Part shown: positions 33,201 to 61,192 of the stretch, piece after piece
Layout of the letters: every line of letters begins with the position of its first letter
How positions within the stretch are numbered: the stretch's first letter is position 1
NCBI GenBank assembly: GCA_000697665.1
Contig: KL197725.1
Span: 70,544 to 134,543, forward strand
Origin: Jaapia argillacea MUCL 33604
Taxonomy: Eukaryota > Basidiomycota > Agaricomycetes > Jaapiales > Jaapiaceae
Direction of reading: 5' to 3'
DNA length: 64,000 nt
Notes under the pieces: generated by a model
The model's input: the letters and a program-made list of their open reading frames with translations, nothing else
Told to the model about the DNA's origin: nothing
The model's database searches: none
Made by a program: the position numbers and the translations under genes

Positions 33201-33331
33201 AAGTTCTCACATGTTCTCCCCATAAGTTCTCCCCTGTGAATCACAGCAGTTGCGCAGGTGATCGACATCAAGCTCACTTTGCATCCGTCATATCTGAGTA
33301 ACTTATTTCATTATAAACCGAAGTGTCGTAG
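30202..33331. other. Region upstream of copy E and flank of the J/I insertion
   Basis: 30,210-31,150 is a purine-rich repeat tract (gatgggaa, gaggtggagg), the mirror image of the copy B leader. Nothing gene-like is supported from 31,150 to 33,331. Short repeats of gctgtcagaggcgacagaggcg type lie at 32,060-32,230. Confidence 0.5.
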
Positions 33332-36300
33332 CTACCCTCGCTTTTGTTTCTTTGCGGGCCCACTGCCCTGACGAGATGAGACCTGACCCTCCCCAGCCGC
33401 AGTGCTGAGACTCCTCGGAACCTCCCCATTCGCATCTCCATCTGTCGCCAGTGCATCACCTTGCACCTTGTCCTTTGCTTGCCACTTCTCAAGGTCCTTC
33501 TGTTGCTTTTTCTTCTCCTTGGCCTCCTTCTGCTTTGCCTGTTTGATATCATATGCTACCTTCAATCCAGATGATAGCTTGTCATGTGTTTCTCGCCGAT
33601 TGCCAAGATACGGCTGAGGAATAGTGAGATCGCGAGGGAGGACAGAGCGGAGGAGATGGGCATTGTGTAATGCATGCATATTGAGAATATGATGTTCGAT
33701 CAGTTTGTGCTCAATGAATTTCTCCATCTGACCAGAGTCTTCACACTCCTGTTGGCGGGGTCGTAAACCTGAAGGGACACACTGGGCATGATCACAATCG
33801 TGTTGAACATTGATAATAAAGTGGACTGCCTGGGAAGACGTGAATGTGGATTGTAATGGAACAAGGCAAACCGTCTGAACATACCTTCGAGTCCACAACC
33901 AACGACGATTGCTCTTGTTGATGTAGCAGTGCAACCGGCATATCGTAGACTTGATGCCGTTGGCTCCCGATCTCGAAACACTCAACAGTAACATAGGTAG
34001 TTGATTCATCTTTTGCTTGAATGATTTCGTTTATTCGCCCTAGTATCGACATACCCTTGATATTCATCTTGAGGTCAGTGGTCAAGTTGAAGGGAGAACA
34101 GAGCAAACACACATCAAATAGTGAGCAGACAAATACCCAAGATGAAAGCTTGCAGATGTCACCAGTGGATGTGGTAATCTTGTGACAGGAGAGCCAGGAG
34201 GAGTCCTCGTTATGAGTGGGTGGATTGATCGCCTTTGACACCGTGGTATTGCACCACATCAACTCCTGTCTCTTTTTTTTGGGAAGGAGGGTTGCGGCAA
34301 CTGTCAGATTGCATGATGTTGAGCAATGGCGCGTCAACGGTGTCACTATTACTTACCTGGGATTGCAGGCTTCGTGACCATCCATCTGAGGTGATTTTGC
34401 AAAATACAGTGCTTCTCGAGAAAACCGCAGATCTTTGGTGAAGCACAAACCCATTCATCATCAGGCTGCTTCCACATCCCACCTGTGATACGCTGTTTGA
34501 AGGATTCTTGATCAGCAAGTTGAATTGCAATGTCATGACTTGGGGCAAGATGGTTTGACAGAATTGTGCAGAATCGAAAGATAGCATTGAAACATTCGAA
34601 AACTTCAGTTGAGTGACCAATGATGGGACCAAATCACCGGACATCTTCGATTATGTGGACGAGGAGGTGTAACTTAATCTTCTTCCAGATCTTGGTGAGA
34701 TCAATCACCGTGAAGATGTCGAGAACATTATTGATGGCAAGTTTGAGGTCGCACTTTTGATGGATAAGTCAATCGATATGGTTCGGGATAATATGTCGTG
34801 GAAACACACCAAATACTCCTCTAAATTGGCAATCTCCGGATACCAAAGTAGGGCGCATAGACTACCCACAGCCTTCCACAGCGAGAAATGATTCTCATCA
34901 AGCTTTCTGTGGAGATGGAAAACACTCATTTGGAGAATTTGCTTGAATTGCTGACCAATCAGCGAGTTCCGATACTGGTGGAGGTAAGTGGATCGAATTG
35001 GAGGAATGGTGAGACCATCAATGGAGCTTGATTGAAGCCTGATAAAAAAAGCGGCAAGAGCATCGTTGGAGAGGGCAGTGTGGGTCATGTGCCAGATATA
35101 CTTGACGATACCTAGGAGGATCGTATGGAGGACCTCAACAGGTGTATCTCAGTTTGGATCAAAGCCTATGATCATTCCGAGACTATTGTCAGCAATATTG
35201 GTAGGGAGATAGGTCAAAATTCTGTACCTTCCATCTGAAGGAACAGATTGTATATGTTGCGGCCATTCTCAACCACCCACATCATCAACTCGTTGGTGAT
35301 CTCCTCCTCAGTGGACTGTGGTTTCTCAACCTTCAGTTGACAAGCGCGGGGAATGAGCCGATCTATCTAATGTTGTGTATATGCATCCTTGATGCCTGTA
35401 TCGGTTTGACGTGTCTTGACCGCAGACTCGATACCACTACAGGCAAGCTTCACTTGGCAGCGAACTTTGTTAAGCGTAACATCAGCGGTGCGAGAGTTTT
35501 GGGCCTGGCATCACACATGCTGAGATCAAGCCATCCATAAAGCAGCCAATTTGGGACGAACCTCAAATAAGCTATCATAACCGTCACTCGAAACTTTGAA
35601 CGCCTCAGAACCCCCCCAAGAGCACTTCCTACAGTCGCAATTCCCATTTCCGCCAATGTGTCCACACTCTTCACTTTGCATGGGGTTATCGGTGAGGGCG
35701 TCGACTGGAAAAACCCGAAATCGACAAAATCCGCCAGTGCTGGGGTCGGGAACTCGAATAGGGTTTTTGTGGGTTCCCCTGTGTGATAGAAAGCTGTTAT
35801 CAAACCAAAAAATTCTGATAAATCAACGGAAGAGACATACTCAATTAGTTTCTTCAGCGCGACAAACTGCTCCACAATGGATGCACTTGGTGATGTTGAC
35901 GCAAAGTGGACGTGAAACTCTTGTTGGAGAAACCTTCGAGGGAGGTTTGCATGCGTGATGTACGTGTTCCAGTGCTTGTTCCAAGATTTGCTGCAATTTG
36001 CGGACACGTCATCGCACCAGACGCTAATCCAACTTGAATACAAGGGCTCGCCTTCTGCAAGCTCTCGAAGTGGGTTGGGCATTTTGCTGAGATGATCCTT
36101 GGAGCATGCTGGATCGTGGTCAATGTCAACTGCAAGTCTTTTCGATTGAGAGAGTCAAACATACCATCACAGCACGGAAGCAGTGAATGCTCGAGAAGAT
36201 CCAGAAAATTGGATGCCAGGTCTTTCACCTCAAATATGAGCTCGTTCTCGTGGTCCACATGGTAAACAGCCTGGCTTTTGTTTGAGATACAGATGACAGC

Positions 36301-37638
36301 AAAACCATCAGCAATATACTCGTGATTTTCCTGCTGTCTCCACCTCTTTGGGATGATAAACTGCCCATTCCTCAACCACGCAAATTCATCCACAAAATAC
36401 GCCTTTCCGCTCTTGTCAATGTAGTGAGGACAGAGCTGGTGGAGAGGCACTTCTTTACATAACTTTTCACCATGCCAGATCTCTGAAACCACACCATCAG
36501 TCATTTGCAGATAGCGGATAATATGGGGTCGGATGAGGGGGTTGCTGTAGTCCTGGTCTTGTCTCAGAATCATGGGACAACAATGAGCAGGCAAATCTGC
36601 TCACTTTGGCAATGATGGCAGTGATATCATTCATGTAAAAGATGTTACCAAGCACCAACTCAAACTTGATAGTTTTGATGCTTGAATCTTTTCGGAGGCC
36701 ATCTTGCACTTTGTGGAGTGCGTTGAAAGATGGAACATTCTTGGCACCAGCCTCGCGTAGAACCCAAAGGATCATACGCATGAGAGCATCCGATATTCAT
36801 AACCGAGGAAGGTTATCGAGTGTGTCCAGAAGGAAGAGCTAATTCAGCACTTATCAGTCAGTGATCGGTGAGCAGGAAAGCCGAAACTCACAGTTTTGTT
36901 GGCATACGGGAACCATTCTTCAGAACGGCTTGGAGGAGAGTTGGTCTGAAAGCTGAAATGTTGGGCATGGATTTCATCTTGATCAAGATCGTCACTGAGA
37001 TCTGCATATGTTGAGAGGTGGACCAGCCGACAAGTGTTTGAGAGAGTGCATACCTGCATTCTGCATCACATTGGTCATGGTGCTATCAACCAATTCCTTG
37101 TCTCCAAACTCCAGTAATGTTGAGAGTGTTGTATGGCCAATTCTGAGAGATTTTGCCAGGCGCATGGCTGTCCCAAGCTGGAACTGTTCATATTCGTCAG
37201 CCATCACCAGTGCCGCACTTGACACCAGGGCATCCCCAAGTGATATCAAGACATCATCATCAAAATGGTAGCTGGGGAGATCGTGAGGGTAACCATCATT
37301 CTGAGATGATGTCGGAGGGTTTACTGGTGCTGACCATGACGCCAAAAAAGCCTTGGACCACTCAGCGTGGAGTTGTTCTTCCCTGGCCAATTCTGCAGTG
37401 TGCTCCTCCTGTGCATGCAGACTAGAATGGAGGGAGGATGTGTGATTGTCACTCCGGAGGTGTCCTGGCAAAGCTGGCCAACCAATGAGCTTCCTGCCAT
37501 GGTAAGGCTCACACACCATGCACGAGAACTTCCCTCCTTCGTGCTCTCGGAAACCTGTGGTATTTCTTGAGTATGACCCATTCAAACAGAAATAAGTGTG
37601 AATGACTTACCTGGGTCTACGGGTTTTTGTTGTGCCAT
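33332..37638 (-). pseudogene. Gene J: decayed transposon-associated multi-exon protein with a zinc-finger-like N-terminus
   Basis: Exons placed: 37638-37611, 37554-37054, 37001-36892, 36838-36605, 36552-36165, 36129-35841 and one from 35778. More follow to the stop at 33332. The protein starts MAQQKPVDPG. A Cys/His cluster (FSCMVCEPYHG, HLRSDNH) follows, then [84 protein letters not shown] and, near the end, LRSVLPRDL. These words belong to a high-copy, unnamed Agaricomycete family that I associate with transposons by recurrence, not by a known activity. Stops interrupt it at TAG 35367-35369, TGA 35149-35151 and TGA 34634-34636. The intron 36164-36130 is only 35 nt, so that junction is less certain. 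It diverges from gene I. Confidence 0.76.
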
Positions 37639-37834
37639 CGGGGCAACACTGTGTTCCAGTCAACACAGCCACACAGTCGACACGAGTGGGGAAGAACACA
37701 CTGGCAACAGCAATGTTGCTCGTGTGACAGGCCACCCTGAAACAATATTAAAAAAGCGGATTTTCAACATTTGCTCCTCGCCTCCTTCCAACCAACATTC
37801 CTGATCCAAGAAATTTCAGTGCCCTCTTCCAGCC
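37639..37834. promoter_or_regulatory. Divergent promoter region between genes J and I
   Basis: The start codons of J (37638, minus) and I (37835, plus) are only 196 bp apart, so both promoters must lie here or overlap it. The stretch contains an AT-rich aatattaaaaaag at about 37,743-37,755 but no certain TATA box. Head-to-head placement suggests the two genes are co-expressed and travel together. Confidence 0.55.
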
Positions 37835-39207
37835 ATGCCATTCAACTTCGCGGAACTGCAAGCAGTTATGAGGTCTGGAGCACCACCCGACACTCCACAG
37901 CTAAATGGGGACCAAATGCCGCAGCCACCGTTGTCCAAGTGCCAGCGCACCAATGATAATGATGACTCCGACTCTGAAGGTGAAAGGAATGGTTCTGGAC
38001 CGACTCACCACCTGTCGGATGGGGCTGAGGATGGTGCTGCCCCCTCCCCAAGGCTAACAGTTTTCAGCACTGGTAACTTGTCAGCGTTCACAGCAAAGGA
38101 GTGTAAGAGGGCAAAGCTCGATGCATCAGAGGAAGCAGATGTCCAGGCTTTCTCGAAGGTGAGCTGCTGGGGGTTGGCTGGTTTGAGGGTTGTGGGTACT
38201 GATGGTCTTTCTCGAAACAGATGCCAATCAAGCAAAAGTTGGTTAAGCTTTTCATCAGGGAGCAAGTGAACGCAAAGGTTCTCACCAAGATGGAGTGGGA
38301 GAAAAATCGATGGGACAGTCCCTCCGAAGAGTTGAAGGTGCCTGATCTCCCAAATTGGGAATCCTTATCAATGTTTGCTAATTGGACTGGATGGTGGCAG
38401 GAGAACCTGAAGAAATATGTGTATGCCGTTGTCCTTTGCCCAACTCTTCACAGCTATCGAAACAAGTTCCCTCTGAACCATTTGCTGGTTTGTCTTTCAG
38501 TTCAGCTCGCCACATCATCTCACTCCCGACATTACCAGGCAATCGTCAAGAAGCTTCGCTGGGATCTTCCACCAAAAATTGAACAAAATGCGGCGCACTG
38601 GAGTATCCTCTCCACAGAGGCCGGTAATGCTATCACACAAAAGCGCCGTGCGGTTAAGCAACAGGTAAGCAGGTTTCCTGCATTTCTCTTGGCTGTCACT
38701 CAGCACATCTGCGGCAGATCAAGATCAGCAAGGATGTCAACCTCTATGTGCTGGCAGAGTCCACGTTGGGTGACAGTGGGTGTACGCTAAGTCTGGAGTT
38801 CATTGCACATGTGGCCGTCTTGGTGAGGCCGCTTTCTTCTCGATTCTACAAAGGACTCCTTACTGAATGCTTGTTAGTGGTGTGTATATTTTGAAGAAGG
38901 TCATCACGACCACACTTATTGGCCCAAAGTTGATGAATTTCTGGGGAACCTGAGAGATGAGGCAAATGGGTGTCCTGATCCAAAAATTGCGGCTTTGATG
39001 TGAGTCAAACTGCTCTTCCTGCTATTCTGACACCTTCTCATACCTGAATTGTGAACTGGCAGAGCTTTGAAGTTTATAATTGATAAGGATCTCAAGACCT
39101 ACGGGAGTGGTGAGGTAGAGGAGCCTGACTTCGATACCCCTGTCCCTGAATGGGCAGAGACTGTGAATGCGATGGTTAATGGAGGCTCTGACCAACGTGA
39201 CGAGTGA
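37835..39207 (+). CDS. Gene I: intact unnamed protein diverging from gene J (about 362 aa)
   Basis: Exons: 37835-38158, 38221-38487, 38539-38664, 38718-38822, 38878-38999 and 39063-39207. All have GT-AG introns of 51-63 nt and the frame closes at TGA 39205-39207. The intron 38488-38538 is 51 nt and in frame. If it is retained the protein is 379 aa rather than 362. The N-terminal 108 residues are polar and acidic, probably disordered (NDNDDSDSEGE). The remainder is alpha-helical in character, with YAVVLCPTLHSYRNK, AIVKKLRWDLPPKIE, YWPKVDEFLG and ALKFIIDKDLK. It resembles an uncharacterised family seen repeatedly in Agaricomycete genomes; no domain name or function is known to me. It is free of stops although its divergent neighbour J has three. 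Confidence 0.82.
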
Positions 39208-39410
39208 TAGCTTAGTGGTGGATCATTAGTATTTGTTTCTATGCTAGTATCCAAATAATTCACAGATTATATCTGCTCCTCCTCTATACCTGAGAATCAG
39301 CCATGCTGATCAGACCCTGTGCACGAGTCACTCATATGTTGCTCGACGAGAACCACACAAAACATATATATTGCTCACACTGAATCTGTTTCGAGTTTTC
39401 GAGGACCGAG

Positions 39411-39990
39411 GTGTTGAGATACCCACATGGACGATCTTCAGTATGGCATAGAAGCGTCCATCGCAAGTTTATGTGCAAGTACATCAGGGAGACAGGGGAT
39501 GATGCATGGGCCAGTCATGCGGAGCTACATGGGTCAGACACCAGAAATGTAGGCGTGATGTATACATTTCCAAGTGAAGATGTCCAGCACAGTGGGGGTG
39601 CATTTCTCACAGATGTGACTGGTCAGTGCGCCACCAGCACCAGCCACATGCAAGGCACATGTCTGCAGAATGGTGGTGTAGGGACGTGGCATTGGTTGAG
39701 AAATGCCTGGCAATCGCCGACGCTGGACTTATCATTTTCAACGTGCTTTCAAGTACTCTGTCACCTTCCCTCACTCGCCCACCTATGTTTCTCTGGCCTA
39801 CGCCTCACTCATCCCTCCAGTCTCTTGTTGTATATCTGGCGGCTTTCAACTCGACCTCTCTCCATTCTGGCGCAACCACTATCCCTGGCACCTTGCAAGG
39901 AGCACACTTCAAGACCCCTTTGTCATACTGAAAATAAGCACTCCTCTGACTTGTTTTTCCTTGGACAGGCCTGGCTCATCTGAATGTTTG
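39411..39990 (+). pseudogene. Possible gene fragment downstream of gene I
   Basis: An open frame of 190 codons (39411-39983) encodes a His/Cys-containing stretch (ATSTSHMQGTCLQNGG). A second frame beginning at 39626 reads CRDVALVEKCLAIADAG and looks more protein-like in its middle. The switch between frames suggests a frameshifted remnant or an unseen intron. I do not recognise a family with certainty. It lies inside the proposed J/I insertion. Confidence 0.25.
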
Positions 39991-40202
39991 TGACGGGATT
40001 GTCATAGGTTGTAGTTTTAGGGGCTGCATGTTGTAGGAGTGTAGATACAAATTAGATAGGAAAATGTAATTTTCGTATAACTGTGAAATGTGTGGTCAGT
40101 GCCCGAAACCTGCCTGGCAAACTTTCCTTCTGAGGCCTCTGACGGCTCTGAGAAAATCCTGTCAGCCTGAAAGAGCGTCAGAGCATCCCCAGTTTTGCTG
40201 AT

Positions 40203-41000
40203 GCTCCACTCTTCAATATGCTATGTTCAATGCGCACATAAAATGTTGGCTCTAGCTTGCGTTTTCCTAACACTGTGGGTCTACTCCACATCACAAGTCC
40301 TCGTATGAAACGTGACTACTCGCCCCATTGGAATCTGATCCTTTTCATTTTCCGAGCTCTCATCTTGAGAATGGAGTTTATAGCAAGCGCCAACACAAGG
40401 ACAGTTGGGAGTTGGGCGTTGAGTGCCAAGGATAGTTTGTGATGTATGCATGGATAAGGTGAGTGCCTCACTTATCTACACACCTTTGAATCCGAAGCCT
40501 CATGTTTGGCATCTAGCATGATCCACCGAACTCCCAACGTCCTACCTTCCTACTCTCGCATTGTTCGCCTCAGTGAATTCTCTGCCCGCTTACCATGGAG
40601 AATTGGCCCTGGGTAGTTCCATTGTGGACTTTGAGATGGGATGGTGGTGAATGTTGGTGGGTATTGGATAATCCCCGAGCTCGGGCTGTGAATGTGAGAG
40701 GCCGAGGCTGAGGTTGGATAAGCATAGAGTTTCAAGTGTTGGTGGTCGATGATCGGTGAGATATCTCTTGATAAAGAAATTGAGTAATTTGATTCACCCA
40801 TGGGAGAATGTCGTGTATAAGGGAGGGTTCGAGAGAAGGTGCTGGCCCGTTGACAAACCTTTCACAGGTCGACTGACTCCAACACCAAGTGTTTCAACAG
40901 TCGATTCTATTTCCCCCTTCAACCACCAAAACTCATCGTCAACTTGTCGTCTAGCAGTTGGCGGGATTTGAGTTTCGGAATTGGTTTTGGTTCGTTGCAG
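40203..41000. repeat. Diverged repeat, partner of 1-850
   Basis: Same anchors as the first copy in the same orientation, beginning immediately after the proposed J/I insertion. The rest of the stretch to the fold-back element at 41,279 holds nothing I can name. Confidence 0.75.
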
Positions 41001-41278
41001 AACAACAGCAAGTTGACTGTGAAGAAATTGAAGAGTCTGGACGGGTTATACAGTAACTGGAGGTTGAGTCCATAGATCAGGGTGGACCGTTGGCTCAACT
41101 TCAGGTCCGCACTCCAACTTGGCCTTCATTTTCTACAACTTGTTCACTCAGATTGACTCCTTACTCATGTCAGGCATTGTAATAAGGTTTATTCTGCAAG
41201 CGCTCTGGTGTAATACACTGCAAAATCGCACAAATTGATCTATCAGTCTATGTGAGAGATTTTCTTCAGTTGAGATAC

Positions 41279-41931
41279 CACCTTAAACAGGGCCAGATGT
41301 GTCGCTGGAGCATGGTCAGAATAAATTCTGTATCATTGCCTCAATAAGTCTCTGGGGTGAGTGAGGCAGCAAAGCCTACATCGAAGTTTGACAGAGGCAA
41401 TGACTTAGCAAAGAACTCAAAGGGGAACTACAGATCGAGAATTCAGGATGATAACCCAGATATAGAATATAAGAATCGGATAAGTGATGGCCACAAATGT
41501 GGCGACAAAATTCAAACTATATTGCCGTCACACAAGTAAACTGTGAGCTGGATAATTACTTTTCCTATGTGTTGGGAGCATACCCATGGTAACCACCGTT
41601 TTAGGCTAGTTGCCATGGTTACCAGACTGTGCTGCCAACACATAGGAAAAGTAATTGTCCACTTCAAAGTTTACTTGTGCGACAGCCAATGTAGTTTGAA
41701 TTTTGTCGCGCATTTGTGATGATCACTTATCCTATTCTCATATTCCATATTTGGGTTAGCCTCTCGAATTCAAAATTTGTGATTCCTCTTCAAGATCTCC
41801 ACAGAGTTATCAGCTCAGTTAAACTTCGATGTCAGCTTTGCTGCCTTCTCACTCCCAAGAACTTATCGAGGCAATGACTTGGAATTTATTCTGACTTTGC
41901 TATGCCGACATGCCTGACCTTGTTTAAGGTG
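41279..41931. mobile_element. Fold-back (MITE-like) element with 3-bp target duplication TAC
   Basis: A 653-bp inverted-repeat element begins CACCTTAAACAGGGCCAGA and ends with the complementary ...CTTGTTTAAGGTG. It is flanked by TAC at 41276-41278 and 41932-41934. The arms match over long stretches (gtcagaataaattc near the left end, gaatttattctgac near the right end). They meet around 41,600, at paired ccatggtaaccacc and gttgccatggttacc. The outer 12 bp are the same as those of the element at 43447, and the interior is only partly similar. It belongs to the same family but is a distinct copy or subfamily. Confidence 0.88.
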
Positions 41932-42156
41932 TACTGTCAGTCCCCTCGTGTTCACCTTATTCAGCCTCCCTGCACACTTCGGGGATGTATTTCTGCGCAA
42001 ACTTGTTCGCTTGGACTCCCTTCAAGTTCAAGTACCCTGCTTGGCTGATTTCGACGAGACCTTTCACATCTCCACCCAAGACTTGCTCAAAGACATACAC
42101 ACATAATATGCCCTCTCATCTTCATCTGGCCCTAGTCTCTTGTCACCCAACTCACC

Positions 42157-44131
42157 ATGTTAGTTTCTGACGTCTGCCATAACAGATCAATGTGGGGCAT
42201 TGTCTCCAGCTGCCAGACGACCGTTCTCGCTTGCACCTAGGTTGCTATCCATCTGAACATTCCAGGGCCCGATGAATCATCCATCAAGGTTACTTTTCGC
42301 CGCATAGGCCTTACCCTCATGGCGTTGATTGCACTGGAGTTGGTGATTTTGTGGGCGATGAAGCAGTGGTTTTGTCCTCGTCGGATTGCAAAGGATCATT
42401 CAGGTGCAATTGCCTTACGCGACTTTCTCATCACAAGTATTCTGATACCGAGTTTTAGCACGCGGGTGGACGAAGACTCATGGCTTCTTCGCTGTGATGG
42501 GCAGCTTTATGCGAGTTTGAGGAAAGATGGAGGTAGCATTGAAAGTCATCCTCCCGAACAATCTCGACAATCTCGCCGAATTTCCCCCAGTCACAGAGGT
42601 TCAAATACAAGATAAAAGTAAATGCAATGCACTTTCCAAAGGACTCGTCTTAGTCCAAATGACTTGGTTTATCCTTCAATGCTTAGGTCAAGCAATTGAG
42701 CACCTTCCCATCACCAAACTCAAAATCGCTATGCTCGCATTCACGATTCTCAATCTCGCCACCTACTCGTTTTGGTGGAATAAACCCACCAATGTGCAGT
42801 GCCCCTATCCCATTTGCGAGAAGCCGACTATATATGAAGACGAAGTGCTTGAAGGAGGGGACAAAGCTGAGAATAGATCCAAGGACTACCACGGAAGGGG
42901 GAATGGTTTCCTCCGCCTTGCTACCTGATTGAATTCTGGCATTTGAGCTGTGTTTTCTTGGGTATGGGATGAGTCAGTGATGGATGATCCTCTTCCAATG
43001 GATTTTGTAGCACTCCCTTTCTTCATTCTAGTCAACAGTTTCCTCAAGCCCTTCTTTACCCCAAAAATTGACAAAGATAGGCCTATGCAGGTACCGACAT
43101 TCTATGCAGGAGACCTTGAGGATAAGGAGGAAAGTCTGATCGCGTGGATTTCAGCTCTGCTGGCCAGCGTGTTCGGAGCAATTCATTGTTTTGCTTGGTC
43201 TCTTCAATTTCTTTTACACACGCAGCAGTTGGTCTGGTGTATATCCGCTGTCACCATCACTTCAGCACCACTTCTGGCAATGGCTATATTTCATTTTCGA
43301 GATGCTGTTTCGACGTTTAGAACAGGATTTAGCCTCATGATAATATTCTCTCTCACCACATTGATATCCATTACATATGTCATTGCCCGCATTACCCTAC
43401 TTGTCCTTGCATTCATATTGCTTCGCTCCCTTCCTTGTGAGGCATACACCTTAAACAGACCTGACTGTGAGATGTTAGAACACCCTGAATATGATCCTTA
43501 CCATTGCCTCAATTTGTTGGGGGATTTGGGGTGGGAATAAAGTCGACAACTCAGTCAAAATGTGATAACAGGTTTGGTGAGACCCCACAGCCAATGCTCG
43601 AACTCTGAATTTGCCACAATGGACCAAATTTGGAATTTGGTGCACGAATAAGTGGCTTGGCATATTCCGACACAAATGCAAAGTATTGTCACCCTCGCAT
43701 AGACAAAGTGAAAGCTGATCTTTTTGTTTACCTTTGCTGCAGCTGCATATCCTATTCTTCAGTGTGTTGTCATGGTTACGAAGGGTATGCAACCGCAGCA
43801 AAGGTAAACAAAATGATCAGCATTTGCTTTGTCTATGCTGCTGTGACAATACTTTGCATTTGTGTCGGAATATGCCAAGCCACTTATCTGAGTGCTAAAT
43901 TCTAAATTTGGTTGGTTGTGACAAATTCAGAGTTTGAGCATCAGCTATGGGGTCTCGTCGAACCTGTTATCACATTTTGACTTAGCTGTCGACTGTATTC
44001 CCACCCCAAACCACTCGACAAATTGAGGCAATGGTAAGGATCATGTTCAGAATATTCTACTATTTTACAGCTGGGTCTGTTTAAGGTGATACGAGACTGT
44101 TTATTGGACAACATTCATCCCTCACCTCTAG
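42157..44131 (+). pseudogene. Membrane-protein family copy F, four nonsense codons and a fold-back element insertion
   Basis: The gene follows the family structure: exon 1 42157-42403 (247 nt, as in C, D, E and G) and exon 2 from 42459. The reading frame is preserved throughout but is cut by TAG at 42238-42240 (where E has Trp28), and by TGA at 42518-42520, 42926-42928 and 42944-42946. Copy C has CGA at the positions matching 42518 and 42926. A 642-bp inverted-repeat element (43447-44088) sits in the last codons. The final residues YETVYWTTFIPHL resume at 44092 after a 3-bp ATA duplication. Leaving out the element and one ATA copy, the length is exactly 425 codons including the stop. Motifs still readable include IQDKSK, WFILQCLGQAIE, WWNKPTNV, FYAGDL, GAIHCFAW and LLVLAF. 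Confidence 0.9.
43447..44088. mobile_element. Fold-back (MITE-like) element inserted in copy F, 3-bp target duplication ATA
   Basis: The element starts CACCTTAAACAGACC and ends with the reverse complement GGTCTGTTTAAGGTG. Similarity continues inward from both ends (for example accattgcctcaatttgt against acaaattgaggcaatggt), so the 642 bp fold on themselves nearly completely. The centre lies near 43,750, around the paired tgtttacctttgctg and cagcaaaggtaaaca. ATA flanks both sides (43444-43446 and 44089-44091). No transposase is encoded. CAC-beginning termini with a 3-bp duplication fit the CACTA/CMC group, but other assignments are possible. Confidence 0.9.
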
Positions 44132-49903: not shown

Positions 49904-51188
49904 TTTCCCCCTTTTCACGCTCTTCGATATCCAGCCTGCTGTGTATGATAGCACGTCCCAATTCCCTCTGGTAGCAGAATATGATTAATTCGCAGAGAAC
50001 GTCCAGGTTTCCCTATCGTGAAATGGCATCGTGGGGGAAGCATGCGTTATCAATTGCGATACCTTGATCTTCCACCACTTTGTCGAGGTCTGCTAACCAG
50101 ATGGAAACTGACAATAATCTGGTATGGGAGTCAGTGCATGAGGCACACTGAAGGACGTGTGGCTGATGTACACTCCAGTTCGGACGGAGAGATGGGGAAT
50201 TCCAAAAGGTACATGATTGATCCAGATTGATCCATACAGGATCGCCTGTAGGCTCGCATCGTGATACGTTTCTCACTGGGCAAACAAATAGCCCACCAGG
50301 CCAACCGAGTGGCCCCCGTAAAAGGAGAATGAAAGTTTACGAGTTGATCCTCACCAAGAGACGGCTGTGTGGACACACAGGTAGGCGTATCCGAGTTTTG
50401 GTGGAAGCTCTATTACTGGGGGAAATGGGTCTGCAGAGGCTGGGGATTTGTCTCATTGATGGTAAGACCCAAGCTGTGATCAATAGTTAGTGGTAAATCA
50501 GGACTTCAGTGATATTACAATGGCTGCAATGGAACAGGTTCCTCACCTGGTAGTCTCGCCAAGAATGGGGAACTTTTGAACTACAGTGGTTGGCAACCAA
50601 CCATCTCCTGCAGCGTCGGATGACGACCATCAAGTCTGCAACCCATCATGATGCCAATCTACACAAACATACAGAAATACGACTGAGCCAGCCACCTCCG
50701 CACTCCTACAAAACGCGAGCAGCTGGCCAGTCAAACAACCGCCCGCCACAAGAATGGTAAAAGTAAGGCAAATCCCACCTCAAAAGACAGATTAACTCAC
50801 CACCAAGCCCTGACATCATGGCAAACGAACAAGGACCGAGCCCGACAGCCTCTCAACTGCCCAAGTATGCTGGACACGTCATTCAAAAAAACTGGCCCCA
50901 GTGGAGGGAGGAATACGAGGTCACTGGCAGTGAATCTTCAATGGAGACGAGGTTTGGTGGGTGTATCAGTTGTAGGCAAAGGTTGTGTGTTGGGGAAATA
51001 GGTTGGCGCCAATGTACAGAACATCTAATTCATCTCGAAGATACGCCGACGGGGAGAGGGTGGACCCAGGACATCAGCAAATCGGCATTTCCCTGGTGCC
51101 CCTGGAAGGACTGGTGAAGTTTCAACAGTAGTCTTGGGAGTGTCAGACAATACTAGTCGTCAGACGAATCACCATACAATGAAAACTA
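49904..51188. other. Spacer between copy G and the Plavaka transposase
   Basis: No gene supported. One end of the Plavaka element must lie in this stretch or slightly beyond, but I found no convincing inverted repeat partner for the sequence beyond 54,400. Confidence 0.5.
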
Positions 51189-54100
51189 TTAAATACATTC
51201 ATGAGAATGGTAATCTCTGTATTTATTCACATAGAAGGCCCGAAATGGGTCGAGGGAGTAGTAGAATGGAAAATCTTGAGGGAGAGGGGTATCATCGTAG
51301 ACGGCAACGAGGTGACAAGCACGAATGATGCAGTCCAAATGAATAAGCCCAATGGTACGGTTGTCTCCCCCCTCAAAGGTCTCTGGCTCCACTACCCACA
51401 TTCCGGTAAGCGGGTCAGGAACGTCACCCTTCGGAAAAAACCACTGAACCAATGCGCAGGGATACCACACAGAATTATGGATGAAGGACAAGGATCGTAT
51501 GACCCTACCAATCACCTTCCCTTTCATTTGATCATCTTCACCTGTATTCTGGATGAGAACAGTCTCGAATCGCGGATATTTCTTCCGCCATGAGGGATTG
51601 CTTCGAATCACCTCCCAGTGCATGCCACATGAGCCGGAAAGCTCACTTGGAGCATAGAAGGTAGCGGTCGCACTGTGATAGACTGAGATACGGCCGTGGA
51701 ATACAGGACAGTGATCGAGTGGGATATTTTCGGCTGCCAAATGGTCATCCAGGTAGAGTTGATCGTGAATGAATCGCCAAATCATATTTGGGAGGTCCGG
51801 AATATCAAGGAGGTCTGTGAGAGCTTGTGGTTTTCAGGACTATGCTGCAGAGCTATATATGAGGGTGGATATATCATAGATGAATTAATACAACACACTG
51901 GCTTGTTTTGCCAATCGAACATAGGATCGCCCCTGCAGCCCCTCAATGGCAGCTATATCCCTTTCCCCACCACCATCATGAGGATGCTCAGGATCATCCT
52001 CTCCGTCTGAGTCATCATCCTTGAGTAAACCCACCACACGTCTCACATGCGATATGATATCACCTTGTAACATCCCTCTCCTTCCGAACTCCACACGAAC
52101 TGCTGCGAGTTTGCTTAACCTTGTGTTCATTCTGATTATCTGTCCAATTGGGTTGTTTCGATTGGACTGTTGCCAAGGTCGTTTAACAGTGGGGATATGC
52201 TTTGACTCAGTGATGGACGAGCAGAGTCCATTTGGAGAGCTGAAGAGTCGTATATTCTCCACATAGTGAACTAAGGCATGTTGTCGGGGAAGGGAGAATC
52301 CCTTTGGCTGAATACCGGTCTCCTGAAAAATGGATCGGAACTCATGGAAACTTTCAAGGGTTTGATTCATTTCTTGCAAACAGAGGGTGTCGTGAGCAGA
52401 CCATCGTGCCAGGTAGCAGAAATCAAGGAAAGCAGCGATACAGTGCACCATCTTGTCTGGAACGAATCCAACAATGGCTGGTAGAAAAACCTGATGATGA
52501 TATTTGTCAGAAACAATGGAGCAGAAAACCCAGTCCAACGTACTTTCATCAACACCTTCGAATCATTCCCTGTCCACTGTTTGTACCCGCGACCCTCAGG
52601 AAAGCGCCGTAATCCAGGGAATGCAGGCACAGCAGCAATCCTACAACCTCGACATGAGCCAAACTCCATGAACAATCAGAAACGATTACCCACCTCCAAT
52701 CAATTTCATCCAGGATCTGCTTAGCCTCATGTTTGCTCGCAGCATGTGTCTCGACGTATTCCACAACCCATGCGACGAGATGGTCCTTGAATGTGCCTTT
52801 GATCAGTTGATGGAGTAGATCGGGGGTGATCAATTGATGGATGTCAGCATGAGGAAAATAGTCTGTGAAGGGCTATACCAACATAGTCAGCAATCAGGAC
52901 ATAAGGATGTGGCGCATTTGAGTGTGATCAAACGCTCCACAAAACATACTCAACCAAATACATACAATGACATCACTGACCACGCCGAACGCATCCCAGA
53001 GTTCGCCCAGATCAAATGTTTCGATGAGAGTATCTGTGTGATCTCGAAACTGAGGCAGACCAGCCTTCTCGAGATTGGATGGAGGCACACGACATCTTCG
53101 TGGAGAACCATAAATAAGGTTAATCTGTCTCTGTTTTAAATTGATCTTGATCAAACACATACTTTGGGCACCATCCTTGAACGATCCCAGACAAAAATAC
53201 TTGCTCCAGGTAATCAGCGATATATGGTCCCAACTGAAAAATGGCCCATCGGTAATGACCATCAGGACAACGCATGACTTCTGGTGTAGTCATCCCTGGC
53301 CGCAGAGGGGCAAGGATCTTCGCGATCGACTGGTGATACACCTGCTTTTTGAAGAGTCGAAACTCCTCGTCGTCCTCATACTCACGAGCAGCTACAAAAT
53401 ATCAACTTAGCTGATATGTTGTATCGAGGTGTCGATATGACTCACTTTTGGGAATAGCCAAGAAGGCGACTGGCACTAATCCCTCTCGATGGGCCTGCTG
53501 CATCTCATTATCGATGTTACCAATTGATAGATAGAGGGGGTGAAATTCCTGATTACCGGTGGCAACGGAAACAGTTGTCTTGTCAGAGCCAAGGATAATT
53601 GGAACCAGCATGGAACCATGGGTCAAGGGGTCCTCGGAGATCTCATCCTGGGTTCAGAAAGTTGTCAGTACAGTAGAATCAATGCTAGTAAACGAGTGAC
53701 ATACTGCCTTCTTGTATGCCCAGTGACCAGACATAACGTTGCAAAATCGCCGTTGATTGGGCCTGATGTACTCTTCAAACGGAGTGTAGTCGAACTTGCC
53801 ATCAAATTCAGAACTTCCAGTCATAGTTCACATGACATCCAGGGTGTTACAGGTGTGGATGATGTATTCCTCTCTCATCCACAAAGGTGAGGTGTTTGAC
53901 ACATGACCATTGTACTTGACGCGAAAGGAGGACCATGATGATTCACCATACTCAATTGAGTCGATGGTCTCATGAAGGTGATCACAGTTTTCGAAGATCG
54001 GCTTCCCGCCGCCATCGAGTACAGCTTTCGCCACAAGAACACGGAGCAGATCATCAATTTCAGCTTTTGAGGTTTGGATCTTGTCAAACATGAGCTCTGC

Positions 54101-54400
54101 AAATTCAAACGAAGGGCGATCAGTAAAGGGAAACCAATTGTGCTCCATGGAGGGGGGATCAGGAGGGGTATTCAGAGGGAGAAAATTTCCCTGAGCATCA
54201 CAATGACAGGCTGAGGGGCAGGCATCATTGGTTGTGCAGGTGAATCAAGGAAAACAGAACTTACCATTGAGAAGGGGATGAAAGTGAAATGTTGACTGAG
54301 GTCTCTGGGGTTTTGGGTCTTGGTGGTGGGTGTTTTTGTGGCGTGTATAGGCAGCTGTGGAACCAAAAGATATCTTGCAAGATTTGCAGTTGCAGGCCAT
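51189..54400 (-). pseudogene. Plavaka-type transposase, nine exons, one in-frame TGA
   Basis: I can place nine exons: 54400-54265, 54210-53705, 53647-53446, 53391-53163, 53095-52966, 52872-52694, 52640-52544, 52490-51899 and 51823-51189. All have GT-AG borders and consistent phases, for 902 codons including the terminator. The N-terminus has a C2H2 finger (Cys5, Cys8, His21, His25). Then come hallmarks of the basidiomycete Plavaka family (CACTA/CMC superfamily, as I recall it): [113 protein letters not shown], and FRAFYVNKY near the end. One TGA at 53828-53830 interrupts exon 2. Apart from that base it appears complete, suggesting a young insertion. I could not locate terminal inverted repeats or assign the catalytic acidic residues. 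Confidence 0.88.
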
Positions 54401-54545
54401 GGTGAAATGTGGATGTAATCAAAGAGGATCGAATTCGAGTATAGGGCAATCACAAAAAAAGAGGGACTTAGAACGGAAATTTGCAGTTGAGGTGTGAGCG
54501 AGGAGATGACACATCATGCTATCCCTCATTTTTTCACCTCCAACA

Positions 54546-57500
54546 ATGGCAGGTTGACAAGGCTCCTGCCGTGGTGGGGCCCGTTCTACCTCTAATTCAA
54601 CTCAGAAAAAAACGTCCTCGGCACTAGTGATGTTGAGGGCCTGGCTCAGCTCAATACCTGGGGCTTGGGCTCAGCTTTGGCAGGCTCAGGCTTCACAAAT
54701 CCTGAGCCCGAGCCTCAGGCCCCAATGAGGGCTTGGTCGGGCCGGGCTCGGACCCAAGCCCAGGCTTATATGAGAATAATGGTGAAAAACTTTGATAAAT
54801 TCATCTTGGTGGGGGTACGGAAGATACAAATGTCAAGAGACTCAGAGAGAGTCAAAGGGGAGAGGACCGTTGAGGGGAGAGGAATAATCGAAATGAAGCT
54901 GTGATTCGAGTCATGAGATCTGGGTGTTGGTGAGGTCGACGGTCGACGGTGGAAGCTGTGGTCGCCTTGATAAGTGGGTCAGATTCGGAGGTCATTACTT
55001 TGAGAACCCACTCACCTGAGTCACCTCTTGTCTGTCACTGATAGTTCTGAGGCCCTCCTCCATCTTGTACACCACAATCACTGTCAATCAGATCCACCAT
55101 CGATCCCAAGAGACTGCAGCCTCGCATAAGCTCACAGTTGTTGTTGTTGGCTCACTAGATTTGAAGCGAAGGGTCGGGGGCAGCGTGAGCACCAGGATGC
55201 GCCTGATGGATGAATCAAAATAAGAGTCCATGGAAAACCAATCGCCGAGGGTGCCATTCACTTCCGGTCCTATATCTCAAGCAAAAAAGTTACCAGCGGT
55301 TGGGGCATCATCACAGGTGAGGACACTAGTACCAATTATATCACCTCCGAAGCAGGAAAGTGCATAATGGGTCCCCGTGGTATCATACCGAGGACATTCG
55401 CGACTTGTCACCGCGATGTGGTGTGACAAACACACCCTCTCCCCTCCCAACTTTCGTGTTGCTCAGGTTCTACGTCCTGCTTATGGAAAACTGAGTACCA
55501 GAGTCCACTGGCAGCACCAAACATCTCTCCAATCTGCTGTCATACAAAGCCTGGGCTCAAGCCTGAGGCTCAGGCTTTCCACGAACCAAGCCTGAGCCCA
55601 AGCTCTATGCAGGCCCTCTTATTGGGTTGGGCTTGGCCCAGCTTTTGAGGGTCGGGCTTGGCTCGGCTTTGGGCTTCAAGCCGAGCCCTCAACATCACTA
55701 CTCGGCACCAGCAGACGATACTACACCTCCACTTGACATTGGTCACAAAAGGGGACATGCAGTACTTGCTGCAGATGACAACGACACCCACACCCTTCTC
55801 GAGAAAGACTCAGTTCCCCCTTTGAAACAACACAAGGATACTGGCAGTACTCACCCAGAGCCCGAGGCAGCTTCTGCCAAGCCATATTCGACTTGACTCG
55901 GAAATGCACTTCACCCTACCAACCAATTTGGTCTTCGAAAACGAACCAGAGCTCAGATATCTCAGGAGGCTGCAGCTAAGCAAGCCAAGAAGGATGTCGA
56001 CGATGCAGAGAAGGCTGCAGAGACTGCAGAAAAGCAGATGCGAGAATTGAAGGGTGCAGAAAGGTTGAGGGCTTTGGAGACAGAGCAGGCACTTGAGGAT
56101 GCAGCAGAGGAGGAATACTTTGTGATGGGGGTGCCAATTACCGAGCCCGAGCAACCAGAGGAGAATACATGCGGTGGAGAGCCATTGAGAGGCAGAGTGA
56201 AAGGTGTTGGGAAGAACAAAGCCACAGTTGCTGAGCAACCTGAGGCGCATGATGCTGACATTACCGTGCAGGGCAAGGGGAAGGTGAGAGTCTCAGCCAT
56301 GAGGTGTATTCCTCGCGCTCATAGTTTGGCTTCTGTCAATCAAAGAAGCCCACAGCCACTGAGAAGAAGAAGGTGCATGCTCAAGATCTTCGCACCTTGA
56401 TCTCGCCTGCCACACAACCGAAGTACGTCACAGCTCCCCACGTCGTCTCAACCTTATCTTAATCTGCACTTGGCTGTTTCGTTGTATCTCACAGGACTCC
56501 TGCTGCTACATCAACAAATGGCACCACTGCCAAGAAGACCAATCCAGCTACTGGCGGCTTTGTTGCCGGATGGCAGGAGAAGATGGCCCAACGCGAAGCA
56601 CTCACATCTCGGTCCTCGAAGCCTCCTGCTCGTTCACGTCGAACCCACTTGAAGACCCCCCTTGTCGCACCAGGACCATTGCCAAGGAACAACAATTCCA
56701 GAAATGGGCCAGCCAATTCTTTGGGATTGCACCCGGCATCCTCATCAACTGATGATTTGGGAGGATTTGTGGACGATGATGTTGAGATGAAGCGGGTTAC
56801 GACAAACAGGGTGAGAGGTGGCCGCCAGGTATGTCACCCTCCGTTGTCATCATGTATGTATACGTCTCGCTAACTGGTTTGTTGTATCCCAATAGATGGT
56901 TTCGTTCATTGACGATGACGACGAGAACGATTATCTCACAAATAGGGCGCCATCCACTCACAAATGATCAAACATTACTCTGACACCTCTGACCCCTGCA
57001 ACATTGGTGCCCTTACCTGGCCCAAAGTCTTTTGATGCTCTCCCCAATTCAATCAAGCCATTCTGGTCCAAAATTATCACTACTATCCTCAGGATCCTCA
57101 GGACAAGATTCAATCCTTGGAACCTGGATGGAGATGGAGACGACTTCCTCAATCTCCTTATGAGAGTTGTTGATTATGTCTGTCCTCAAGAGCAGATTGA
57201 TATTGAGGTTGGGTCACCCACTTTTACTTACGTAAGTGCTTTTGTTTCGTAAATGTCACTATGTGTACTCAGCAAACCTTAGGCTAAACAACGTGTGTAC
57301 GACTGGAGGGCCGATTTTCAGAAACGAGGCATCAGAGTTGTCAAGAACGCAATCCTCAGAGAGGTAGGCAAGGATGCCTTTAATGGGACGAAGCAAGCTA
57401 TCGTGATTCAGTGGGTGGTGAAGGTCAGTGGAAAGAACGGTGCTGCATTCTGGGGTAAGCCTGATTCGAAGGTATGTTTGTTATCGATTGAGGTTTCTCT

Positions 57501-58020
57501 CCATCTAATCAGTTCTGTAGAACCCCTCAGAGGCCTTTCAATCTCCATACATCCTCGAAACCTTCTCGACACATCTGAAATCCATGACCAGGTCTGTCAT
57601 GAAGGAGATGCAAGAAGTCGAGAACATGGGTGAGGGCGATGTTGATTATGAGGAGGAGAATGGTGGGCTGCCTGCTGGTGCTCTCACCCTTGCCACCATT
57701 GCTGTACGTCTTTTTCCCGTAGTCTTCGCTGAAGTTGGTTGATAGCACCTGCTTCCTAGGTCCAATGCACATTCCAAATGTATTCATCTGGGAAGTATAT
57801 CACTCCCGATGACAACTTTTCTGAGAAGACAGTTGGTGATCATACCGAGCAGTACACATCCAGCGACTCTCTCCAGTGACTCGTGGAAAATTTCCATCAG
57901 TTCGAATCTCTGATCAACAAAGCCACCGAGTACATCACGTATGTGAAGAAGGGTGTTGAGTCCAAGCTTGACATTCTCGTCTTGATGGATCCCAGCAGCC
58001 CCCCGCCCATGGATGATTAG
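54546..58020 (+). pseudogene. Gene H: unrecognised multi-exon protein, four TGA codons, split by a hAT-like element
   Basis: The frame starts ATG GCA GGT TGA at 54546, is interrupted by the element 54625-55700, and continues at 55709 (APADDTTPP). It runs through a Lys/Glu/Ala-rich probable coiled coil (QEAAAKQAKKDVDD, near 55960-56090). Further exons follow donors at 56284, about 56427 and about 56829. They encode GGFVAGWQEKM, then PLPGPKSFDALPNSIKPFWS, WNLDGDGDDFLNLLMRVVDY, YDWRADFQKRGIRVVK and KYITPDDNFSEKTVGDH, ending at TAG 58018-58020. TGA stops fall at 54555, 55894, 56965 and 57877. The conserved C-terminal part resembles an uncharacterised protein type that recurs beside transposons in mushroom genomes. 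I do not recall a named domain and give no function. Confidence 0.72.
54625..55700. mobile_element. hAT-like non-autonomous element with 8-bp target duplication
   Basis: The 1076-bp element begins TAGTGATGTTGAGGGC and ends with the inverted GCCCTCAACATCACTA. The ends extend inward as imperfect inverted tracts of GGCTTGGGCTCAG and CTGAGCCCAAG type words. It is flanked by exact 8-bp copies CTCGGCAC (54617-54624 and 55701-55708). TAGTG termini with 8-bp duplications are characteristic of the hAT superfamily. There is no transposase ORF inside. It sits inside the first exon of gene H, whose frame is continuous across the site if one target copy is removed. Confidence 0.88.
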
Positions 58021-58760
58021 AGTCCATGCATCATGAGTTCTTATCATCCTTTCCCCAGCAGTTGCTCATGAACTGTTTGTTTAGACATAGATGTTGCCTC
58101 GAGGGACACCCACTTCAGGATTAGGTCAAAAATAAAACCACCACTCATCGTATAACTAGAAATCGATACCAATAAATTCAGAGTGTTTATATTACTATTA
58201 GTTGTGATCCCATCGACTGGAAGTCCTGGGACACTGGGAGTGTTTGACGAGGTTCGAACTCACACTCCTGAGAAGCCAAAAATGTCTCTCTGATACCTGG
58301 TTGACTGACGGGCCCTGAGCTCAACTGAACATCCTGAGAAGCTGCTGTCAGGAGCGGTCAGACGCTTTGCGACTTTGCTGATGGATATGAGAAATAGTCA
58401 GTCGTTGATCTGGGGTTTAGCAATAGAACTTGAATGAGACTGCAATCGAACAGGTACCTCACCTTGGAGTCCCACCGTCAACACCACTACCAAGCCCCTC
58501 TCGCAACACCAGAATACATCCATCAAATGCAAGTGAGTCCCAGTAAGAGGAGGCATGGGAGTCAGCTGACGATGCCACAAGCAATGCGTGAAAGGACACT
58601 TAACGACGGATAGAACACAAGGTGAATCAGAAGAAGATGGTGCTAGAAGGAGAAGCATCAGCATTTCTGGATTTCCCTGAGATCCCCTGACAATCGCTTG
58701 TCAGGCAATTTCAGGGAGTTTCAGGGGAACGTCGGACTGTCAGAAGGGTCTGCTACTTAG

Positions 58761-58800
58761 CAAAATGGCAAAATGGCAAAGTGGCAAAGTGGCAAAGTGG
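58761..58800. repeat. 8-bp tandem repeat CAAARTGG x5
   Basis: Five consecutive units, two caaaatgg followed by three caaagtgg. Confidence 0.95.
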
Positions 58801-58918
58801 CAAACAAAGAAGGGATCGTGAACTTGGCCATTGTGGCATTGTAGCATAGTAGCAAATTCTTGTCCGGTCCGTTTGCTGGTCAGTCTGTTGGCCAGTTGGT
58901 TGGCCGGCTGGTTGGTTG

Positions 58919-58960
58919 CACCTTAAACAGACCCGCCTGTGTCGCCGGAAAAAACTCTGA
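58919..58960 (+). mobile_element. Solitary end of a CACCTTAAACAG element
   Basis: CACCTTAAACAGACCCGCCT matches the termini of the two fold-back elements at 41279 and 43447. I could not find an inverted partner (CTGTTTAAGGTG) downstream, so this is probably a truncated copy. The extent given is only the recognisable terminus; the true interior length is unknown. Confidence 0.55.
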
Positions 58961-59483
58961 ATTTGCTCTGGAACATTGCCTGTGTTTGCGATGGGCCATG
59001 TGGCCCTGATACACCTTTTCCCAATTTCTAAATATAATTTCAAGTTTGACACCTGCACACACTGGGAGCTCAAACTCTAAATATTGATGTACATCTCAAA
59101 TTTTCAATATTGGGACACAAAATGAGTTTGATGCATGGTCGATGTCAAATCCCAACTATGGTGTGGACTGTGTGACGTTGCCATATTGGAAGGATAATAG
59201 GCGGTCTCATACTCTAGGGTAAATCCAAAAGAAGAGGCCATGACATCCTTTAACAGAGCAAAGGTTACAAAGTCTAAATAAAGTGTAGCATGTGTTTCCA
59301 CCTATAATTCGTCAGATTTGGGGTGATGACATAGCACACCCAGTATTTAAACTTTCTATCTGAGAACAAAGAAAAACATTGTTTTGGTGAAGGAGCCATC
59401 ACCATTCTTAACCTTTGCTGAAGGGTATGTTTCGTCACAAAGTGGGGCAGCACATTTAAAATTTGCGTCAGGAGCATATTGAA

Positions 59484-59600
59484 TGGGCCAGTACTGGGCC
59501 AGTCACTGGGCCAGTCACCGGTCAGTCACTGGGCTGGTCACCAGGCTGATAATAGGGCCAATCACTGGGTCATCGATGCACTGGGCTGTTCATGAGGGCA
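59484..59600. repeat. Degenerate ~12-bp tandem repeat of GGGCCAGTCACT
   Basis: Successive gggccagtactgggccagtcact words degrade to gggctggtcacc and gggccaatcactgggt. A related ggccagttggttggcc series is at about 58,870-58,917. Confidence 0.8.
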
Positions 59601-59799
59601 CTCACCAGGGTACCTGGGGTACTTGCTGAAGTGCCGAAGTGCCAAGAGCAAGGGGAAGGAGAATACAGATTCATAATCACAACTTGAAGACAAGATGGAA
59701 CGACTATATCACTGCACAGTTCAGCCGAATGGCCCTTTCAATTGACAGTCCATCTCGCAGACTTGTGTCGCTTTGAGGGAGGTGGGTCCTGATAAGTTT

Positions 59800-60542
59800 T
59801 CAGTCAGACTCCTGGTGAGATGAGGGAGAAAGACATACCTGAACATTGTCAACTTCCTCACTGCTGCGACTTCTCCCGATTCTTTGGGTGCTGTCTGTGG
59901 ACCTCAGTTTCCCTTTCCGAGCACTCACTGAAGTCCTCTTCAGGTATAACTTAATAAAATCCTGAGTTGCCCACGAATCTTGGTAATTTTGCAGCACCTG
60001 AAACTTCGAATTCTGCTCTACCTGGGAGACCGTGAGCGAGATGTTCAAAATGAAAGTGGAACGTGGACAAACTTTGTGACAAACAAGGGCCACTTTCGAC
60101 GCCTCTTGAGATTTGTAGCTCAGATGTGTATCGAGATGGGCGTCGGCCAGAAGGTGGATATGTGTCTGATGGAGCCATTCAGATGCATCTGAATTTCAGA
60201 AGGAAGTCCACATACCTGAACACTTTCATAGAACGTGTGGGACCATTTCAAAACAGTCTCCAGTGTGTAGCCACCTTTCCTGCCTGGACGACCGACCAAA
60301 CCTGGAGGCTTGGGAATGAGAGCAGAGGAGGGCGACTCCTCCCGTCCAAGTGTGGGCGATGTAGAGGGCTCCTTAGTTGGCACTGGTGGAATGGATGATT
60401 CAGACTTGGATTGTGGTGCGGGTTCAGGTTCAAGTTCGGGTTCGAAAGTTGTTCAAAATGTGATAGTAGATCGGAGAATGACGTGCTCAGGGCTAAAGCG
60501 GGCACGACTAGTAATGGGCAGAAAATAACGTTGGACAGACAT
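59800..60542 (-). pseudogene. Gene K: IPKPPG-motif family protein, one in-frame TGA
   Basis: Exon 1 60542-60216 begins MSVQRYFLPITSRARF. It has an acidic, proline-rich spacer, then LIPKPPGLVGRPGRKGGYTL followed by WSHTFYESVQ at the splice donor GTATGT. Exon 2 begins at 60165 (THIHLLADAHLDTHLSY). A later segment reads LQNYQDSWATQDFIKLYLK. This order matches an uncharacterised fungal family I have seen in mushroom genomes (IPKPPG-GRPG followed by a short helical domain); function unknown. TGA at 60453-60455 interrupts exon 1 in the sequence TITF-stop-TTFEP. The 3' end is not defined. Confidence 0.55.
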
Positions 60543-61192
60543 TGTACGTGCTGAACAAACTCTTGCTCAGACAGAGTTTATAAGGGGGAGTGCGAGGTGA
60601 AGTACTGCCATGGAAGAAGGTAGTAAGAGCTGTCAGGACATGAGATTTGATCGGTTGAGGCAGAGTCCATCTGAAAGAGCCACTCCCAGATTGACACAAG
60701 GTCCCATTCAACGGCAGTATAACGAATACAACACATACAGAAAATGGAAGAAGGGGTGAGGTGCCAGGAAAGAAGGGTTGCCAGGAATGTAGTTGCCATG
60801 AGATCAACTGACACAGAGTCTAAGTCGACCATTTCCAGAATGACATAAAGTCTAACTCTGATCATGAAGGTAGTAGAATGCATGCAGGAAGTGGGATAAG
60901 AGGTAAGATGCCATTGTGGAAGGTAAGTAAAGTTTGGGTTCAGGCGTGTTTCCCTTTTTGGACAAGTGCAATTCATGCAAACTGGACAACATCACCAAAT
61001 GTTAGCCCAATCCTTGGTACTCAGAGTCTCGAAGCTGAGTGGACTTTGTATCTGCATTTAGACTTTGTGTCGATGGCGAGTAACAATGTTTTTTTCTTCT
61101 TTTTGGGCAAAGTTTGTTTTCTCCCTCCCAACATATTTATCTCGGACTGGGTATGCATTCGTGAGTAGCCAGTTTTCACTGCTCCTTGTCTT

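Follow-up and report, generated by a model that had tools for sequence, protein, structure and literature searches.

CpG-specific decay in a transposon-rich domain of the Jaapia argillacea genome points to deamination of 5-methylcytosine

The locus and its CpG content

The window analysed here is a stretch of 64,000 nucleotides from the basidiomycete Jaapia argillacea MUCL 33604 (contig KL197725.1, below C17, positions 70544-134543; genome of 43.7 Mb in 95 contigs). It carries an array of genes for predicted multi-pass membrane proteins, including family copies C, D, E, F and H, and, farther right, a repeated block with genes J and G and the relic of a Plavaka transposase gene. Several genes of the right half are broken. 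An initial annotation ascribed their stop codons to 5-methylcytosine deamination or mutation resembling repeat-induced point mutation (RIP), with loss of CpG and gain of TpG and CpA. Segmentation of the window by its observed/expected ratio (o/e) of CpG, together with C-to-T counts at CpG between paralogues, divided it as follows.

1..17966, undecayed (CpG o/e 0.91), with the family array; no asymmetry in paralogue pairs (17 v 19, 38 v 37)
17971..32209, intermediate (CpG o/e 0.72), containing copies D and E of the family; pairs 83 v 37 and 81 v 54
32213..64000, decayed domain; CpG o/e 0.56; continues beyond the window for 20 kb or more

The predicted depletion was observed: CpG o/e was 0.564 in 33-61 kb versus 0.828 in 1-31 kb. 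The TpG and CpA excess was found as well, TpG (1.31 versus 1.16) and CpA (1.34 versus 1.09) rising about equally alongside the CpG step; TpA showed no rise (0.54 versus 0.62). When 1-kb windows were compared, the median was 0.56 on the right (n=28) and 0.85 on the left (n=31; Mann-Whitney p = 2.6e-9), and none of the 28 right windows lay above the left median. Segmentation with a strong penalty placed a single change point at 31.77 kb, and a weaker penalty gave the three segments listed above. The statement that the left half lacks the signature therefore had to be restricted: it holds for 1-18 kb and fails for 18-32.2 kb, where CpG o/e is 0.72. Within this intermediate segment, an island at 30211-31999 adjoining the transposon-rich domain had a CpG o/e of 0.91.

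The depletion continued over the 20 kb that follow on the contig (0.52 and 0.55, loci L046 and L047). As a genome baseline, eight interior 5-kb stretches were taken, one of which was all N and was dropped; the remaining seven ranged from 0.79 to 0.96 and gave 0.89 when pooled. Around 30 Plavaka matches (one in the window, two overlapping each other), out of a genomic load of 133 matching pieces, CpG o/e ranged from 0.12 to 0.98; many transposons thus share the low-CpG state, which is no special trait of the 32-64 kb locus. In 33-64 kb every CpG context was depleted (TCG 0.71, ACG 0.56, GCG 0.52, CCG 0.40), and the TpCpG preference of Pucciniomycotina RIP-like mutation was not seen there, TCG being the least depleted context.

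Direction of change in a paired block

In order to establish the direction of change, we compared one block of the decayed domain with its paralogue elsewhere on the same contig.

40427..46943, F block; its segmental paralogue or sister, C17:54.0-59.5 kb (locus L045), is not CpG-depleted

Both copies hold gene F with its flanks, and the sister DNA has a CpG o/e of 0.97. At CpG, a C in the sister faced a T in the window at 151 of 557 sites, and the reverse was found at 46 of 306. Outside CpG, C-to-T differences were balanced (190 v 183; Fisher p = 1.5e-9 for the CpG contrast). The same pattern was obtained for gene F alone, with 57 v 9 at CpG and 35 v 35 elsewhere, and CpG loss was alike in the gene (52/104) and in its flanks (86/176). 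These per-context counts replaced a GpC control, which overlaps CpG in GCG and had given 63 v 41 for the F block. Undecayed control pairs were symmetric at CpG (19 v 25 and 46 v 48). In the intermediate segment, copies at 21-28 kb compared with those at 3.6-9 kb gave 83 v 37 (p = 0.001). When each of ten family copies was tallied against the consensus of the others, F (4/16) and H (5/16) ranked highest for CpG transitions at sites of full conservation, which are few.

Repeat status and decay

The window offers both repeated and apparently single-copy DNA, copy numbers being lower bounds throughout, with lost partners and assembly gaps possible.

32960..39681, repeated block of 6.7 kb with gene J (- strand) and gene G (+ strand); TA on both sides, short inverted ends TACACCACC...GGTGGTGTA
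37700..39670, + strand, region of gene G; ORF (open reading frame) 38203-38787
4392..7499, duplicated control, 88% identical over 3.1 kb to C17:40990-44105; CpG o/e 0.90
46944..48497, CpG o/e 0.58; no further copy detected
55702..60500 (4.8 kb), no second copy found apart from one 68-bp match; CpG o/e 0.52 (55703 being the last base of a dispersed 200-bp repeat)

The repeated block is probably a DNA transposon. Contig C27 carries a 93% identical copy, C76 a partial one and C26 distant relatives. Over 6700 columns, the window and C27 copies differed at 433 positions, of which 396 were transitions and 37 transversions. There were 114 CpGs retained in both copies and 208 in one only, and the 50 TG/CA sites observed may be set beside the 47 predicted if the copies lose CpGs independently with 52% kept. 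Each copy would thus have lost about 48% of its CpGs beside a pairwise divergence of 1.9% at other sites, which means that CpG cytosines changed about 35-fold faster than the rest. This ratio lies above the mammalian one of ten- to fifteen-fold.

Such figures are also what RIP would leave, whether in its homology-directed form or in a CpG-specific basidiomycete version in which duplicates are found and mutated in the sexual stage: the element is multicopy, the three stretches with its copies are all CpG-poor (0.56, 0.54 and 0.40), transitions far exceed transversions, and about half of the CpGs are gone beside little other divergence. In canonical RIP, as known from Neurospora, C-to-T transitions fall at CpA and create stops in repeated DNA. 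The locus shares the transitions and the resulting stops; it differs in that CpG and not CpA is hit. CpA-to-TpA changes were in balance in the F block and its sister (34 v 35), TpA o/e was not raised in the domain, and the TCG preference mentioned above was absent.

Repeat status did not fit RIP either. The DNA at 4-9 kb, with the 88% copy of the duplicated control and many further copies at 71-82% on the same contig, lies in the identity range in which RIP acts in Neurospora, and yet its CpG o/e was 0.90; change at CpG in 4392-6744 was symmetric (17 v 19). Conversely, both stretches for which no copy was detected were decayed, although a lost partner is possible there. Repetition was thus neither needed nor enough in the stretches tested. 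These results speak against the RIP-like mutation proposed initially, in the usual meaning of the term; we regard it as improbable, and they suggest that location rather than repetition decides which copies decay.

Stop codons in the broken genes

Exonic stops were assigned by comparison with paralogues. Genes G and K were kept outside the tally since their frames are not fixed, as were the stop differences found in all six frames of the alignment of the J and G block, which are not limited to coding frames.

34355..36838, - strand, conserved coding blocks of gene J: TGA 34636 (CGA in the C27 copy), TGA 35151 (TGA in the C27 copy too), TAG 35369 (TGG in the C27 copy), TGA 36799 (CGA in the C27 copy, TGA in the C76 copy)
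42153..43446, + strand, dead family copy F: TAG 42238 (same TAG in the sister at C17:55 kb), TGA 42518, 42926 and 42944 (CGA at all three in the sister)
48557..49905, + strand, dead family copy H: TGA 49349 and 49748 (no close sister; poor alignment at 49748)
51570..54244, - strand, relic of the Plavaka transposase gene: exonic TGA 53830; TGA 53656 and 53404 intronic

The 11 assigned stops comprised 9 TGA, 2 TAG and no TAA. The initial count had been 13 TGA, 2 TAG and no TAA: the predominance of TGA, the two TAG and the lack of TAA were recovered, and the number of TGA came down to nine. Some of the 13 may be intronic. Measured against the nearest homologue, the two intronic Plavaka TGAs fall in gaps between exons, and a TGA at 42443 in F is intronic and also present in other family copies. 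Wherever a TGA differed from the nearest sister copy, CGA was found there (5/5). The alignment of F TGAs 42518 and 42926 with CGA in copy C (18024-18026 and 17607-17609), noted at the outset, was reproduced.

From the codons of undecayed genes, TGA would be expected to make up 30-31% of new stops if transitions are weighted 3:1 and CpG has no effect; a CpG effect of 20- to 40-fold would raise this share to 62-87%. The probability of at least 9 TGA among 11 without such an effect is 6e-4 to 7e-4.

Decay by CpG loss did not kill gene F in the first place: F was dead already, since TAG 42238 is common to the sister, which is itself frame-broken. This dead sister retained its CpGs all the same, and gene death alone is therefore not sufficient for CpG decay. 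The observation bears on a second alternative, namely that greater age, weaker constraint or a foreign origin alone accounts for the low CpG of the right half, methylation having no part in it. Its GC content is indeed slightly lower (0.475 versus 0.497), and it is rich in dead genes and transposon relics. However, one and the same block in two places differed in direction at CpG only, non-CpG C-to-T changes being symmetric, and a dead gene outside the domain is not depleted; we consider this alternative very unlikely. That the TGA surplus arose by chance, or by miscounting of intronic codons, of which at least three were in frame (42443, 53656 and 53404), has next to no probability in view of the share of TGA among exonic stops, the CGA at every comparable paralogous site and a CpG decay that is visible independently of stops.

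Methyltransferase loci

PF00145 matches were detected on C2, C4 and C5 by a six-frame, exon-wise search of the genome, which can miss genes. The C2 and C5 sites have PF12047 a few kb off and also matched DNMT1 chains. The C4 locus matched the 7r76 chain, labelled Rad8, at 1.1e-81; we take this chain to be Cryptococcus Dnmt5. The genome would thus hold two loci of the DNMT1-RFD type and one Dnmt5-like locus, as judged from matches of exon pieces. With regard to RID/Masc1 as a mark of canonical RIP, the three PF00145 places comprised two of the DNMT1 type and one Dnmt5-like, and a further gene may have escaped the exon-wise search. According to the accessible part of a 2026 review, the enzymes behind CpG methylation in basidiomycetes are DNMT1-RFD and DNMT5, and the methylation is concentrated in transposon-rich regions (PMC13297926). 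The C2 DNMT1-type locus (L011, C2:149239-152415) was itself CpG-poor (o/e 0.52; 0.91 at the C5 locus) and may be silenced or decaying.

Neighbouring genes and repeats

The membrane-protein family forms a large array in 1-50 kb of the window and in C17:37-56 kb, with members also on C74, C67, C22 and C8. The array shows introns, mixed orientation and several dead members. Among the ORF pieces scanned, neither this family nor J or G had a Pfam match above the cut-off, and when 30 further ORFs of the window were scanned (shorter ORFs left out) Plavaka was the sole match above it. A search of phage records with one family ORF gave no match. Family copy D contains an internal tandem repeat at 22680-22967, which matches itself at shifts of 114 (92%) and 171 bases (85%). 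At 55500-55703 lies a 200-bp dispersed repeat with at least 19 further match rows genome-wide, 72-95% identical.

Two palindromic insertions interrupt the F block, the first of them cutting off the 3' end of gene F at 43447.

43447..44088, palindromic insertion of 642 bp; ends CACCTTAAACAG/GTTTAAGGTG; apparent 3-bp target repeat ATA
41279..41931, palindromic insertion of 653 bp; end sequence the same as in the 642-bp insertion; apparent 3-bp target repeat TAC

Their arms are 83% and 76% alike, respectively, they have the ends CACCTTAAACAG in common and they are absent from the sister block. By this structure, both would be classed as foldback-type mobile elements. The arm-to-arm substitution spectrum of the two contained too few CpG events to be used.

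Gene K was considered as a TRM13 gene and rejected: PF05206 reached only 20.6 bits on one ORF (cut-off 26), and the frames do not join as one gene. A genome search with PF05206 gave no match, the controls being equally silent.

Discussion

The decay from about 32 kb rightward is, in all likelihood, the result of 5-methylcytosine deamination in a CpG-methylated, transposon-rich domain, and it follows position, not repeat status. Such a domain would begin at about 32 kb and reach 20 kb or more beyond the window. Its CpGs, which presumably are or were methylated, would be turned into TpG or CpA by deamination on both strands. A change from CGA to TGA is the only single-transition route from CpG to a stop, so that TGA would accumulate in dead frames. 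Transposons presumably served as seeds of the domain. The deamination named in the initial annotation is well supported by the direction of C-to-T change, which is biased at CpG only, and by the CGA opposite all five comparable TGAs.

Several observations weigh against this interpretation. Two of the 11 assigned exonic stops are TAG, one of them a TGG-to-TAG change, and for the stops of H and Plavaka there is no close sister from which a direction could be read. The sister of the F block lost CpGs as well (46/306 sites). For copies at 23-30 kb compared with locus L003, the 81 v 54 at CpG was not beyond the pair's own non-CpG asymmetry (p = 0.17). With the consensus set at the 80% level, the CpG transition fraction of D in the intermediate segment (17/66) was as high as that of F (10/40); because of this equality and of the few sites, the paired comparisons were relied on instead. 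Finally, the copy-number searches give lower bounds only, and the methyltransferase evidence consists of exon pieces, of which gene intactness is no part.

A more far-reaching version, which we put forward tentatively and consider rather unlikely, is that position alone sets CpG mutation. The methylated domain, seeded by transposons, would have spread over unique DNA into the edge of the living membrane-protein array, where copies D and E lie (18-32 kb), and members would have been pseudogenised in spatial order under an approximately 35-fold CpG mutation, equally duplicated members outside staying clean.

Decay by deamination has counterparts in other basidiomycetes, as far as the accessible parts of the sources cited here report. 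Transposons of the rust Austropuccinia psidii show CpG loss without classic RIP indices; the loss was ascribed to deamination at methylated CpG, and genes for DNA methylation are present in that genome (PMC8063080). The present locus resembles this case in all three respects; it differs in that the rust data were measured across transposon families, whereas here paired blocks lie inside and outside the domain, copy-less DNA is decayed and duplicated genes are spared. A CpG-to-TpG bias with TGA named as the resulting stop was described in Rhizoctonia solani AG8 (PMC4014442), where the change touches repeats and genes both, and in Heterobasidion parviporum (PMC5870257). The bias and the stop product are alike; those data are single-nucleotide polymorphisms between nuclei or isolates, and ours are paralogues within one genome. 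CpG signatures were also reported in basidiomycetes with a class IIA (Masc2-like) Dnmt1 and no RID (PMC4352252). They share with J. argillacea the CpG-only signature and genes of the DNMT1 type; here two loci of the DNMT1-RFD type stand beside a Dnmt5-like one, and the absence of RID is not proven by a six-frame search. CpG-only decay is likewise known from Microbotryum transposons (PMC4469406). In the accessible part of a Pleurotus genome paper (PMC5974365), nothing matched on CpG, RIP or deamination, and a paired-context test of the kind made here was not found among the titles and abstracts of a partial literature search.

The process is therefore one already known in basidiomycetes, of which this locus is a clean and real instance. 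For CpG hypermutation in Agaricomycotina, the accessible parts of two of these papers (PMC4014442, PMC5870257) leave open the choice between a RIP-like process and plain deamination. The new value of the locus resides in its layout, in which position and repetition are separable: with a paired block in two contexts, an undecayed duplicate and decayed DNA that is apparently single-copy, RIP-like mutation and deamination could be told apart here.

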